Below are positions 1,788 to 18,172 of a stretch of DNA of 21,766 nt, one piece after another. Both the position numbers and the translations under genes were made by a program. Source of the DNA: Terramyces sp. JEL0728 (lineage: Eukaryota; Chytridiomycota; Chytridiomycetes; Rhizophydiales; Terramycetaceae); NCBI GenBank assembly GCA_027603945.1, contig JADIIU010000178.1:1-21766 (forward strand), read 5' to 3'. The notes under the pieces are model-generated. The model worked only from the letters and a program-made list of their open reading frames with translations. It did not search any database and was not told the DNA's origin. Numbering within the stretch: position 1 is the first letter of the stretch; each line of letters starts with the position of its first letter.

Positions 1788-2531
1788 ATGGCCAACGAAG
1801 AATACGATTTTCTTTTCAAAGGTTCCGTATATTTAATAAACAGTTGTTCTAATTGGAGATTCAGGAGTAGGTAAATCAAACCTCTTGGCGAGATTCACAA
1901 GAAATGAATTTAATCAGGATTCGAAATCAACAATTGGGGTCGAATTCGCAACTCGTTCAATTCAGGTTGACGGAAAAACAATTAAAGCACAAATTTGGGA
2001 CACTGCAGGACAAGAAAGATATCGAGCAATCACCAGCGCGTAAGTGAAATATATTCTTTAGGATAAAAGAGCAGTGCTAATATTAGATATTACCGCGGAG
2101 CAGTAGGTGCGTTGCTAGTATACGATATTTCACAACAAAAAACATTCGAGAGCGTAGAAAGATGGTTAAAGGAACTCAGGGATCATGCGGATGCTAATAT
2201 TGTAATTATGTTGGTAGGAAACAAGTGCGATTTGAAACATTTGAGAGCGGTACCGACTGAAGACGCCAAGGAATTTTCTAGTATTCTAATTTAATGGCAG
2301 GCTCCCAAAACATTTCCTTTATTGAAACATCCGCACTGGATGCCACTAACGTCGAAACTAGTTTCCAAAACATTCTAACAGGTAGTTGTGGCTAATTCAG
2401 AAATTTACAAAGTGGTTTCAAACAAAGCATTGGAAAATGAAAGCGGATTAAACAAGAAAGTTGGGGGTGGACAATCAATCGTCGTTGCTCCTTCAGATCC
2501 TGCAAAGAAAGCTAAAGGAGGATGCTGCTGA
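1788..2531 (+). CDS. RAB11: Rab11/Ypt31-type small GTPase
   Basis: A Rab11-family GTPase of about 211 residues controlling recycling-endosome and late-Golgi traffic. Removing introns at 1822-1843 (22 nt), 2040-2086 (47 nt), 2281-2300 (20 nt) and 2382-2400 (19 nt) gives an uninterrupted protein with all G motifs: GDSGVGKS, the switch I segment [22 protein letters not shown] and ETSALD. Switch [21 protein letters not shown], is the Rab11 signature. The C-terminus KAKGGCC carries the double-cysteine geranylgeranylation site. The core is close to animal Rab11, while the terminal CC resembles fungal Ypt3/Ypt31. The 47-nt intron is the longest in any gene I could identify by homology. Confidence 0.97.
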
Positions 2532-2627
2532 ATAAATATCATTAGTTGTTACTGTTAAATACCGGTAAAGTATTGCTTGCTTTTGATTTCATTTGGAAGA
2601 AAAAAGTTGAAAGATTTGTGCCTAATA

Positions 2628-4936
2628 ATGGCAAAGAAAAAGAAGCAACCAGAGAGAGAAGAAAAGGTAAAAATACCAGATGATGAATTTATAGTTCAGC
2701 AAACGCCAGTACAACCGGAAAAGACTCGTCCTCAGCCATTACGAGTGTACATCAACATTGCTGACATGAAAAGGTTGGATTTAGCGACTGGAGATTTCAT
2801 CTTTGTTGCAAATTCAGATAATAAAGCATTCGGAATTGCTTGGCCGTCGATTGCAATCCAGAAATCGCATTTGCAAATGGCAAGAACTCTTGTTGAGAAT
2901 GCAAAGCTGGAGCCAGGAAATGCAGCAAAGATAGAGATTATGGACATACAGAACCCTACAGATTTAGAGTCGATTAAAATTCAGTTGAATGGACCAGTGC
3001 CAGTTGACAAATCGTTTGCCCTGTATGCTAAAGAGTTGATGGTTGAGTTAGAGTACACTGTTGATGGCCAACTTTACGAAATATCATATGGCGGGATGGT
3101 TTATAAATCAAAGCTGACTATTAACAGCGGAATTATTGGCAGGATAACCAGAAATACCAACGTGAACTTTATCAAAGAGAAAAGAGTGGAGCTGGGTGAC
3201 GTTAGTTATAAATCTATCGGTGGATTAAAGGAAAGTATCGATGCTATACGGAAAATGGTCGAGATCCCTTTAAAGAACCCAGAAACATTCACACAATACG
3301 GTATTCATTGGTAATACTAGGATTCGCACCTCCAAAAGGACTGCTGTTACATGGACCGCCTGGAACTGGTAAAACTTTAATTGCAAGAGCAGTGGCTGCC
3401 GAAACCGGCGTCCATGTAATCATTATTAATGGCCCTGAAATTGTAAGCAAGTACTATGGCGAAACGGAAGCAAAGGTAACAGCTTTCTTAAATAGTTAAA
3501 AGAAATATTTGATGAGGCTGCCACGAACTCGCCATCGATTATATTTATAGATGAGATCGATTCCATATGTCCAAAAAGAGAAGATGTACACATTGTTAAT
3601 TCAGAGTCAGAGTGAGCTGGAGAAACGGATCGTGACCTGTCTCTTAACTCTGCTAGATGGTGCGGAGAGTGCAGAGTTGGAAAACCGGCCTAGAATATTT
3701 GTTATAGGTGCGACTAACAGACCAAACTACTTGGATCCAGCACTTAGAAGACCGGGGAGATTCGATCGGGAATTTGAAATCGGAATACCAAATGCGGACG
3801 CCAGATATGAAATATTGAAAACTATATGTGCAAAGATTCATCATAATTTATCAGACAAAGAGTTTTTACACATATCTTCAGTCGCGCATGGTTATGTTGG
3901 AGCAGACTTGGCCGCTGTTGTAAGAGAAGCAGGATTGAAAGCAATTAAACGAATTCAAAAGAAATACGCACCTGGCCAAGATATATCAAATGACGAGGAC
4001 CTGATTATCCAGTTTCAAGATATGCTGGACGGGCTTGCAAATGTAAGACCAAGTGTGATCCGAGAAGTATCTTTTAATTTATATATAGATTATGCTCAAA
4101 GTGCCCAAAGTCTATTGGCACGAAATTGGCGGGCAAGAAAACATCAAGTCTAGACTCAAAGAAGCAGTGGAATGGCCATTGAAACATCCAGAGAAATTTA
4201 TCAAATTTAACATTAAACCTCCAAAGGGGCTATTACTATACGGCCCGCCTGGATGTTCCAAAACCCTGATGGCAAAAGCACTTGCAACTGAAGCAGGACT
4301 GAATTTTATGGCTGTCAAAGGGCCAGAGGTATTTGTTGCTAACACCAGTTATTTAGTAAATGGGTCGGAGATTCAGAAAAGGCCGTCCAACAGATATTCA
4401 AAAAAGCCAGAGCTGCTTCTCCTTCAATCATATTTTTTGATGAAATCGACGCTTTAGCTGTGCGGAGGTCAGGATCGGAATCTTCTGTTGCCGACCGAGT
4501 GCTGTCCCAATTATTAAGTGAAATGGATGGAATAGAGCCTCTAGTGAATGTTACGATTGTGGCAGCTACAAATAGACCTGATATCCTGGATAGCGCGTTA
4601 CTTCGGCCTGGAAGGATAGATTCCATATTATATGTGTCCCCACCGGATCTATCTTCCAGAAAAACTATATTTGAATTACAGCTAAAGAAAATTCCGGCTG
4701 CACCTGAAGTCGATCCATTTGAACTTGCTCAAATGACTGAAGGGTTTTCAGGGGCCGAAACTGTAGCTGTTTGCCAATCAGCGGCATTGTTAGCAATGGA
4801 AGAATCAATGGAAGCTAATGAGGTCCAAAGAAAGCATTTCATGGCAGCAATTAATCAAACAACGAAAAGAATCACTCCAGAGATGCTGCAATTCTATGAT
4901 AACTTCCGCCTTAGATCTGGTTTAAGATCGGTTTAA
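2628..4936 (+). CDS. AFG2: AFG2/SPATA5-type AAA+ ATPase
   Basis: A double-AAA ATPase of about 735 residues. In yeast Afg2/Drg1 removes Rlp24 from cytoplasmic pre-60S ribosomes. The first AAA domain has Walker A GPPGTGKT near residue 234 and Walker B IIFIDEID. The second has GPPGCSKT near residue 512, whose Cys-Ser is diagnostic of the Afg2/SPATA5 subfamily as opposed to Cdc48, and IIFFDEIDA. The linker [13 protein letters not shown] also matches the family. Five introns are needed: 3301-3320 (20 nt), 3476-3495 (20), 3586-3604 (19; acceptor at 3610 would also keep frame), 4067-4088 (22) and 4329-4348 (20). The start ATG is followed by a Lys-rich segment. The gap after the Rab11 stop is 96 bp. 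Confidence 0.97.
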
Positions 4937-5032
4937 TATATTATTTCTACAATGGATTATCTGTCTACCAACTAATTTGCATGTCGTGGATTTAACGTCA
5001 AAACAAAAACTCGATAAATATAATTTTCCAAA

Positions 5033-17115: not shown

Positions 17116-17786
17116 TTATTTTGTATCCAGTGCTATATTTCTTTTTTCATTCATTCAATAAATGTTCCTATTAGGGGAAACTGAATATATTTATCATGAG
17201 TGTGCTTGGTGGTTGTAATAGCCATCAAATATCTGCTCGTTGAAAGTTGGTGTGGTAAATAGAGGCTGCGAGATAAGCACCAGTTGTGTACCTGAGCACT
17301 ATATTCGTTGAAATAATACCTTTCACGGATTGGTATTGGTACTCACATGCTTGTGTCAATCCGCATCTACTTTTTGTTGTGATGGAAACAACTACTGCAA
17401 ATTAACAAAAGCAACAAACTGCTTCCAATGCATATTTATCCGCACCAAGTACAGCAATACGAGGTTCACAGCTGTAGGTCTGTTCCTTTTCCTAAATTTT
17501 CACTTATTTTCCCCATTTTGAGAACGGCCAATCATACGTTCAACCAATTTAGGCCAAACCCAGACCTCGTCTTTCCTCCTCGCTGGTCACAAAAAACAAT
17601 ATACAGCAAAACAAACAGGTTTGCCAGTGGCTTTTCTGATACTCTATCCAAATGGACCCTATGCATAAAAGCAAGGTATCCTGTCGATGGTTTAAACACA
17701 AAATGTGCGTTGGAGCAGCAAATCCATTTTTTCGTCTGTGATCAGAATGCTTCACTGGTTTGCGCACAAGTTACACAAAAAAGGGC
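17116..17786. other. gap between bHLH 3 and 4 with unexplained open frames
   Basis: About 670 bp. Two frames are open longer than expected for AT-rich DNA. The first, ending at 17521, has no ATG but is Cys-rich (CLCQSASTFCCDGNNYC then TNCFQC) and then hydrophobic. The second, from an ATG at 17428, runs in frame into bHLH factor 4 and could extend it by 130 residues. A well-placed TATA box just before the bHLH start argues against that extension. I assign no gene. Confidence 0.4.
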
Positions 17787-17794
17787 TATAAAAA
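17787..17794 (+). promoter_or_regulatory. TATA box for bHLH factor 4
   Basis: TATAAAAA, 31 bp upstream of the ATG at 17818, followed by a purine-rich leader. This spacing supports the short start over the upstream in-frame ATG at 17428. Confidence 0.65.
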
Positions 17795-17817
17795 GAAAGA
17801 AAAGTAAAGCGAAACAA

Positions 17818-18172
17818 ATGAGACATTCGAATGCAATACGGAAAGCTTCAAAGCACAGCATCATAGAAAAAGAAAGGTAAACGAAACTAATGTAGACGTG
17901 AGAAATTCAGGGTTTGTGTCGACAGACTAAAAGAGCTTGTTCCTGCTTGTTGCGAAGCAGAGAAAAACTACCAGCTGGATGTCCTGCAACGCACTATTGA
18001 ATATATTGAGCATCTGCACCAGAAATACGAGGTGAAATCAGATGCCAAAAGTCAGTACATTACATGGAAGTCTTTAAAAAATCAAGAGTTTCCTTCTTCG
18101 CCAATCTCTGAATATTCTGTCGATGGGTCGGTGGGGACTGATACAATGTCAATTAGAAACCTGTTATGCTAG
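17818..18172 (+). CDS. bHLH transcription factor 4 (two exons)
   Basis: About 111 residues. The basic region KHSIIEKERRREKF is assembled across a 19-nt intron at 17877-17895 (ends ACTAATGTAG), which splits the codon for Arg12, ten coding bases downstream of the intron in bHLH 3, so the two introns are close but not at the same site. Helix 1 is RLKELVPACC and helix 2 is LDVLQRTIEYIEHLHQKY. A Ser/Pro-containing segment (FPSSPISEYS) and the tail TMSIRNLLC complete it. The frame is open upstream to 17428, so a longer form is possible; the TATA box favours the start given. Confidence 0.9.

Follow-up and report, generated by a model that had tools for sequence, protein, structure and literature searches.

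Candidate spliceosomal introns of 19-22 nucleotides as the common class in the chytrid fungus Terramyces sp. JEL0728

The whole stretch of DNA analysed here (the window) is contig JADIIU010000178.1 of Terramyces sp. JEL0728, 21,766 nucleotides (nt) long. All of its letters come from one genome, a draft assembly of 15.0 Mb in 231 contigs, whose source the taxonomy look-up places in Fungi; Chytridiomycota; Rhizophydiales; Terramycetaceae. We placed 33 introns in 11 genes of the window, and 32 of them measure 19-22 nt. Very probably these segments are spliceosomal introns of the ordinary U2 type, reduced throughout the sampled part of the genome to a unit of 19-22 nt that is close to minimal. They would be excised from RNA as lariats and would belong with the shortest nuclear introns on record.

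Genes and introns of the window

Genes were modelled with a purpose-written Viterbi gene finder that combines codon scores with permitted GT...AG introns, and the models were then corrected by reading the sequence. By length, the 33 introns comprise 11 of 19 nt, 14 of 20 nt, three of 21 nt, four of 22 nt and one of 47 nt. GC-AG ends occur in one of the 32 short introns (12466-12486). The genes and their introns are as follows.

1788..2531, + strand: Rab11-like GTPase gene, 4 introns, 211 amino acids (aa) spliced; gene-finder model and alignment to solved Rab-11A
1822..1843, +: Rab11 intron, 22 nt, GT-AG; model and alignment
2040..2086, +: Rab11 intron, 47 nt, GT-AG, the sole long one in the window, ending in GCTAATATTAG; model and alignment
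2281..2300, +: Rab11 intron, 20 nt; model and alignment
2382..2400, +: Rab11 intron, 19 nt; model and alignment
2628..4936, + strand: AFG2-like AAA ATPase gene, 5 introns, 735 aa; model and alignment to solved AFG2 homolog A
3301..3320, +: AFG2 intron, 20 nt; model and alignment
3476..3495, +: AFG2 intron, 20 nt; model and alignment
3586..3604, +: AFG2 intron, 19 nt; model and alignment
4067..4088, +: AFG2 intron, 22 nt; model and alignment
4329..4348, +: AFG2 intron, 20 nt; model and alignment
5033..5942, + strand: membrane-protein-like gene (the 5033 gene), 4 introns, 276 aa; model, reading and Boothiomyces homologue
5281..5300, +: 5033-gene intron, 20 nt; model and homologue
5495..5513, +: 5033-gene intron, 19 nt, bordering a 33-residue gap of the Boothiomyces protein; model
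5603..5622, +: 5033-gene intron, 20 nt; model and homologue
5779..5798, +: 5033-gene intron, 20 nt, placed by reading after the gene finder had passed over it; homologue agrees
6009..6900, + strand: second membrane-protein-like gene (the 6009 gene), 3 introns; ab initio model only
6451..6470, +: 6009-gene intron, 20 nt; model
6560..6578, +: 6009-gene intron, 19 nt; model
6723..6741, +: 6009-gene intron, 19 nt; model
6972..8606, + strand: HRD1/synoviolin gene, 5 introns, 511 aa; start codon by reading (models begin at 7020)
7107..7125, +: HRD1 intron, 19 nt; alignment
7219..7238, +: HRD1 intron, 20 nt; alignment
7545..7565, +: HRD1 intron, 21 nt; alignment
7693..7712, +: HRD1 intron, 20 nt; alignment
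8421..8439, +: HRD1 intron, 19 nt, unused in the GenBank model; following exon matches Boothiomyces HRD1
8617..9811, - strand: PEX3 gene, 2 introns; model, alignment and reading
8680..8699, -: PEX3 intron, 20 nt; model and alignment
8968..8987, -: PEX3 intron, 20 nt; model and alignment
9875..11811, - strand: NEDD1-like gene, 4 introns; model and reading
10615..10634, -: NEDD1 intron, 20 nt; model
11063..11082, -: NEDD1 intron, 20 nt; model, within the NEDD1-matched stretch
11325..11345, -: NEDD1 intron, 21 nt; model, within the NEDD1-matched stretch
11481..11499, -: NEDD1 intron, 19 nt; model, within the NEDD1-matched stretch
12006..12567, + strand: PDI/thioredoxin-domain gene with C-terminal DDEL, 2 introns; model and alignment
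12218..12236, +: PDI-like intron, 19 nt; model and alignment
12466..12486, +: PDI-like intron, 21 nt, GC-AG (GCAAGC...TTGATAATAG); model
12846..13888, - strand: cytochrome c1 gene, 2 introns, 332 aa; model and alignment
13326..13347, -: cytochrome c1 intron, 22 nt; model and alignment
13532..13553, -: cytochrome c1 intron, 22 nt; model and alignment
16827..17115, + strand: bHLH gene, 1 intron; reading and HLH domain
16882..16900, +: bHLH intron, 19 nt, divides the basic region; reading and HLH domain
17818..18172, + strand: bHLH gene, 1 intron; reading and HLH domain
17877..17895, +: bHLH intron, 19 nt, divides the basic region; reading and HLH domain

How well are these junctions placed? At 24 of the 33, an alignment or domain match crosses the joined exons. 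Against solved proteins, the spliced products run gap-free over every junction of Rab11 (4/4, with Rab-11A), AFG2 (5/5, with AFG2 homolog A), PEX3 (2/2) and cytochrome c1 (2/2), over four of the five in HRD1 and over one of the two in the PDI-like gene. After the fifth HRD1 intron Terramyces has LELLSDEQLRQFEGTSRQAI, where Boothiomyces HRD1 has FELLSDEQLRQFEGTSRQAI. The spliced cytochrome c1 is identical to the GenBank Terramyces protein. For the 5033 protein one homologue was listed (891 candidates scored), from Boothiomyces sp. JEL0838; it is 67% identical and gap-free at 3/4 junctions. Both bHLH junctions (2/2) restore the HLH domain. Nine junctions stand without a residue-level display, namely the four of NEDD1, the three of the 6009 gene, the second PDI-like one and one of the 5033 gene. 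The NEDD1, 6009-gene and second PDI-like introns rest on the gene finder, and three of the four NEDD1 introns lie inside the stretch matched to NEDD1.

A sequence-only reading of the same DNA had counted 34 introns in ten genes, with 32 at 19-22 nt. The number of short introns stays as it was and the totals become 33 and 11, while its limits at 1822 and 17895 coincide with the first and last introns placed here. It had also held that joined exons restore conserved blocks in six proteins. This is so at every junction of Rab11 (4/4), AFG2 (5/5), HRD1 (5/5), PEX3 (2/2) and cytochrome c1 (2/2), and is displayed residue by residue at 0 of 4 in NEDD1. To call the length fixed at 19-22 nt fits 32 of 33 introns in the window and is slightly strong, since longer ones exist (47 nt in Rab11 and a 25-nt call in another gene). 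That call belongs to a plus-strand gene at 2264-2738 of locus L048, ribosomal protein S10-like by eye, which was modelled with a 25-nt intron.

Three alternative models were rejected on the way. Division of the 47-nt Rab11 intron into two introns and a mini-exon would leave a second intron of 13 nt. The gene finder had joined NEDD1 and PEX3 through a 105-nt "intron", which on reading resolves into two genes. The first model of the PDI-like gene had a 30-nt GT-AG intron at 12457-12486, superseded by the 21-nt GC-AG intron at 12466-12486.

Length peak and intron anatomy

Does the peak at 19-22 nt stand above chance, and does it extend beyond one contig? The wider sample comprised 298,204 bases (a sample of the contig labelled C1, the window and 23 loci from other searches) and is therefore gene-biased. 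Intron lengths were sought up to 120 nt in gene models and up to 60 nt in a gene-free histogram. The results of the motif-trained gene finder lean on its own training; motif-free runs and a count of strings do not.

The motif-free run, on 200 kb of C1 plus the window, gave the gene finder no splice signals and weighted all intron lengths from 12 to 120 nt equally. With GT-AG boundaries it placed 94 of 183 introns at 19-22 nt. The same gene finder, run with 12 other boundary pairs as controls, placed 3-20 introns at these lengths out of 124-213 each and gave no peak. Most of the 94 short introns (83) start with GTA, and 46 have a YTRAY box with 5-6 nt after its A. Five control pairs gave 10-20 short calls each, among them no more than one with such a box.

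In the string count, the pattern GTAN, YTRA[CTA], one or two bases and YAG was tallied by total length on both strands without gene models. At 19, 20, 21 and 22 nt it occurs 56, 93, 41 and 12 times, 202 seen against 36.5 expected. At 18 and 23 nt it occurs nine times each, which equals the background (mean 9.1 for 26-60 nt), and Markov-chain sequences of the same dinucleotide content gave 3 to 6 strings per length.

With learned motifs and flat lengths on all 298,204 bases, 220 of 292 introns fell at 19-22 nt; the others were three at 12-18 nt, five at 23-30 nt, 22 at 31-60 nt and 42 at 61-120 nt. A prior favouring 18-23 nt, with GC donors allowed, gave 305 of 334 introns at 19-22 nt and 1.97 introns per kb of coding sequence (CDS). 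These 305 divide into 300 GT-AG and five GC-AG, one of the five doubtful, under a model that permits just these ends. Extrapolation to the genome yields from about 11,000 (string excess) to 15,000 (length-prior model) short introns. The claim that introns of the 19-nt class are the norm in this nuclear genome holds over about 300 kb.

The anatomy of the short introns was described on 223 introns of 18-23 nt from the motif-trained model. The typical unit opens with GTA, carries a branch point of YTRAY type with 13-14 nt ahead of its A and 5-6 nt behind it, and closes with YAG. Before the branch A there are 13, 14 or 15 nt in 103, 87 and 22 introns and fewer than 13 in nine; after it there are 5 or 6 nt in 89 and 108. 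The strict YTRAY matches of the motif-free set have 13, 14 or 15 nt before the A in 26, 26 and 8 cases, 12 nt in one and 6-10 nt in 12. The commonest branch boxes are TTAAT (50), TTAAC (30), CTAAT (29) and CTAAC (28). Information above background amounts to 6.4 bits in the first ten positions and 7.4 bits in the last twelve (GT and AG counted). The stretch ahead of the branch site is T-rich (43% vs 30%), and the 5-6 nt past the branch A leave no space for the usual polypyrimidine tract. A compensation of 5' and 3' spacing towards 20 nt is weak (13/14 before by 5/6 after: 37, 56 / 28, 17; Fisher p 0.018; 164 of the 223 introns, those in which YTRAY occurs once). It was set aside because misassignment of the branch by one base yields the same pattern.

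Beyond the simple GT-AG class, short GC-AG introns were found at 12466-12486 of the window and in the SF1 gene (21 nt each), and by reading in the U2AF35 gene (22 nt). The last is fixed by the protein start, which aligns from residue 1 with the solved U2AF 23 kDa subunit. Of the eight GC-AG introns modelled in all, those of 110, 92, 23 and 20 nt are implausible, and the 23- and 20-nt ones lack a branch box. The introns do not look like the U12 type, which is marked by a rigid, extended 5' site and a long branch box rich in C: their positions 4-8 are weak, with mostly A or T, and their branch box is a short one of the YTRAY type.

An intron of 21 nt keeps the reading frame if it is retained, and 59 of 65 such introns contain an in-frame stop. 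At 19, 20 and 22 nt the figures are 37/65, 89/145 and 16/30 (together 142/240).

Could these segments never be spliced at all, and be sequencing indels, programmed frameshifts, translational bypassing or pseudogenes? We give this explanation almost no credence. Some hundreds of segments have common GT/AG ends, a branch motif and set spacing, which errors would not give. The spliced proteins are conserved and full length, and the GenBank model of cytochrome c1 itself takes both 22-nt introns.

Splicing machinery and weighing of the interpretation

The genome encodes a splicing apparatus of regular appearance. The U2 small nuclear RNA (snRNA) scores 140.2 bits and is canonical, with the GUAGUA branch-binding site intact; the alignment reads GUGUAGUAUCUGUUCUU. 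SF1 carries a helix-hairpin, a KH and a zinc-knuckle domain. The match of the large U2AF subunit to solved U2AF65 covers RRM1-RRM2 (residues 110-306) and the C-terminal domain (339-434), and the small subunit matches the solved U2AF 23 kDa subunit over residues 1-190. The N-terminus of Cwc25, MGGGDLNLKKSWHP, has 14 residues identical to the solved CWC25 homolog and keeps the glycine plug. The genes of SF1, U2AF65, U2AF35 and Cwc25 themselves carry introns of 19-22 nt; a 15-nt intron modelled in SF1 was replaced by the 21-nt GC-AG intron. Some matches were doubled: a Rab (139 bits), a U6-like one (26.9 and 27.4 bits) and a Cwc25-type one (53.7 bits) occurred on two contigs each, the three sharing the pairs C111/C199 and C30/C33, and a Rab of 95.7 bits occurred twice in C184. 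Either haplotypes were left uncollapsed or the copies are recent duplicates.

The earlier claim that the introns are spliceosomal is supported by their GT-AG or, rarely, GC-AG ends, by a branch point of YTRAY type at set spacing, by restored frame and homology, and by canonical U2 snRNA, SF1 and U2AF. Inspection of the U2, U6, SF1 and U2AF genes had been advised with that claim: U2, SF1 and both U2AF subunits are present, and U6 was not found.

Several observations weigh against the interpretation as shrunken ordinary introns. A strict YTRAY at 5-6 nt is missing from 48 of the 94 motif-free short introns. The excess of stops at 21 nt would fit selection for decay of unspliced mRNA, but it is confounded by detection, because the gene finder leaves stop-free 21-nt introns in coding sequence. 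In a smaller model set, 11 intron candidates remained at 21 nt vs 4-5 at 19, 20 and 22 nt; with all 11 added, the stop share is still 59/76. Exons show no avoidance of cryptic introns, as decoys of 19-22 nt are not depleted (39 vs 36.9, 25 vs 14.2 and 8 vs 5.4 at scores 1, 2 and 3), perhaps in part due to real 21-nt introns remaining in the models. A depletion of 15-18 nt decoys (6 vs 17.6, score 2) came from several thresholds and lengths tried and is left unused.

On the same side stand the searches of the assembly for U6 and U1, in which 48/1328 and 41/233 candidates were scored. The covariance model of U6 gave at best 27.4 and 26.9 bits on two near-duplicate contigs, below the 44-bit cut-off; BLAST with the Rfam consensus returned nothing; three patterns gave 6, 5 and 4 near-matches, and the six loci of the first, scanned with Rfam, held no U6. 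U1 was not found. The draft assembly may lack these genes or the search may have missed them, and the result says nothing of their absence. The 27-bit U6-like match was judged a chance one, as the aligned one has no AGC triad.

The long calls of the flat-length run (64 of 292 introns at 31-120 nt) also count against a uniform short class. Together with the 47-nt Rab11 intron, they favour the idea that the introns are real and the tight peak is partly an artefact, longer introns being common and missed by reader and models. We regard this as improbable. The motif scores of the calls at 31-60 and 61-120 nt have medians of 1.9 and 2.25, vs 3.81 at 19-22 nt. In the motif-free run a well-placed YTRAY occurs in 12 of 78 introns of 23-120 nt vs 46 of 94 at 19-22 nt. 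In the homology-checked Rab11, AFG2, HRD1, cytochrome c1 and PEX3 genes 1 of 18 introns is long, and the gene-free length histogram has no second peak up to 60 nt. The 31-120 nt calls are partly false, but some must be real, because the 47-nt Rab11 intron is shown by homology.

Removal of such introns may instead need a specialised spliceosome, as proposed for the ciliate Stentor, where an altered Cwc25 plug and Isy1 N-terminus would avoid a clash with the tiny lariat. There Cwc25 is reported to be without the Gly plug and the Isy1 N-terminus not to be conserved (PMC9505925), and in Terramyces the failure to find U6 and U1 leaves room for oddities in these RNAs. Terramyces Cwc25, though, retains MGGGDLNLKKSWHP, and its U2, SF1 and U2AF look standard. 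A specialised machine is a minority possibility, to be taken more seriously than the artefact discussed above.

For ordinary introns handled by the standard spliceosome, a geometric explanation can be proposed. U6 forms a helix with roughly the first six intron bases, and U2 with roughly five bases upstream of the branch A and one downstream of it. If the branch A stands at position 14 or 15, the U2 branch helix would start at position 9 or 10 and two or three bases would separate it from the U6 helix; the 13-nt floor may represent the room for the two helices side by side. Such a fit agrees with the sharp floor at 13 preceding bases. The YAG 5-6 nt beyond the branch A would then be chosen as the 3' site, and the intron would be read as one rigid object by intron definition. 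Since regular SF1, U2AF65, U2AF35 and Cwc25 are encoded, the shrinkage did not need their loss.

From this we tentatively propose, with a little less than even confidence, that most introns of this intron-rich fungal nucleus are pressed to the geometric floor of the standard spliceosome (13 nt from the 5' end to the branch A). Donor, branch and acceptor would form one rigid 20-nt word, served by a conventional SF1-U2AF-Cwc25 machine. If true, this breaks a reported rule linking very short introns in intron-dense genomes to degenerate signals, and loss of the Cwc25 plug is not required for tiny introns.

Public gene models, neighbouring genes and known systems

Public models were compared for three genes (cytochrome c1, HRD1 and the 5033 gene). 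The GenBank Terramyces model of cytochrome c1 uses both 22-nt introns. Its HRD1 is a chimera of 590 residues that begins in the 6009 gene and ends in FDSTSN, without the last intron and exon; the annotation pipeline took such introns in cytochrome c1 and failed on them in HRD1. Compared with the spliced Terramyces proteins, Boothiomyces HRD1 misses about 100 internal residues and the Boothiomyces 5033-type protein an internal stretch of 33 residues. Most simply, short introns would have been mis-modelled there too. The practical consequence is that some public gene models are damaged by such introns. One pan-eukaryote intron survey excluded introns <30 nt in every species (PMC10639083).

In the HRD1 of an environmental relative (a contig of 2321 bases), the residues WYSFDLILNS are inserted between CPT and R. 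Back-translation of the insertion yields 27 nt of the form GTA...AAYAG, which may represent an ultra-short intron retained in frame in another chytrid.

Five bHLH genes lie in the window, one at 379-813 (- strand) and four in tandem at 16087-16425, 16827-17115, 17818-18172 and 18487-18789 (+ strand). The tandem four end in INNLLC, ISNLLSR, IRNLLC and INNLLS and the fifth in LETLLC; small bHLH factors with a common C-terminal motif may have expanded locally here. Four tandem intronless open frames of 44-67 residues follow at 19347-19544, 19829-19981, 20457-20660 and 21206-21340. They share a start like MxLRFVPALGLAVSSTALGLQLGVVRPIL and form a family of short, possibly membrane proteins; Pfam gave no match for the two of the four that were submitted. 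About 1.9 kb between cytochrome c1 and the bHLH cluster (about 14000-15900) has no gene model on either strand, in a contig otherwise gene-dense. Scans of the window for Rfam families and tRNAs gave no match.

Among the papers listed by open-access searches with capped listings we recognised no report of ultra-short introns in chytrids or other fungi, which does not establish absence from print, and the chytrid passages met gave no intron-length figures. The sequence-only reading had named chlorarachniophyte nucleomorphs, some ciliates and dicyemids as the comparable lineages. The list can be extended by the lengths it omitted: 15-16 nt in Stentor, a ciliate with introns shorter still, a median of 24 nt in Paramecium bursaria, and 23-25 nt in few genes of Trichomonas.

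The nucleomorph of Bigelowiella natans has introns of almost equal length (18-21 nt; PMC6461891) and is likewise intron-dense. It differs in being a relict endosymbiont nucleus with mostly GT(A) at the 5' site, shrunken U1 and U5 and no branch-point signature reported (PMC6461891; PMC2483917). Paramecium also has ultra-short, dense, nuclear introns; they are longer (median 24-25 nt; 24 nt in P. bursaria; PMC12862383; PMC5014332), again with no branch-point signature reported (PMC2483917). In-frame stops of ciliate introns have been analysed (PMC5014332). Trichomonas type B introns (23-25 nt, in few genes; PMC12316389) and those of Encephalitozoon resemble the Terramyces ones in being short with a conserved CTAAY-type box near the 3' end (PMC12316389; PMC2483917). 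Both are intron-poor, however, with 63 introns in T. vaginalis and 13 described in E. cuniculi, whereas Terramyces has about 2 per kb CDS.

Dicyemids are opisthokonts. Their introns are likewise very short and dense, but their 5' signal is the weakest known and a branch-point signature is reported to be absent (PMC2483917). According to the same source, short-intron, intron-dense lineages have no branch-point signature and intron-poor lineages tend to strict signals; shortness alone is not the cause of lost signals, as the introns of E. cuniculi and T. vaginalis are short yet conserved (PMC2483917). Terramyces shares length and density with the nucleomorph, Paramecium and the dicyemids, but not their absent branch signature. 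With these results a chytrid fungus would join the lineages with ultra-short introns, and its combination of clear signals, shortness and density is unexpected under the published contrast (PMC2483917).

The introns of the heterotrich ciliate Stentor coeruleus measure 15-16 nt. As in Terramyces, they are nuclear, common and GT-AG with a GTA donor, and the branch A is fixed (10th base of 15) with 5 nt after it (PMC9505925). In contrast, Stentor has 9 nt before the branch A where Terramyces has 13-14, no strong branch consensus where Terramyces has a clear YTRAY type, and a Cwc25 without the glycine plug that the fungus retains (PMC9505925). The 3' spacing of Stentor is thus like that of Terramyces, but its 5' spacing falls below the Terramyces floor. 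Terramyces would provide a second, independent test of the smallest intron that a spliceosome can handle. Jointly, the two organisms suggest, without proof, that the standard active site may be enough for about 13 nt or more and that changes would be needed for loops below that.

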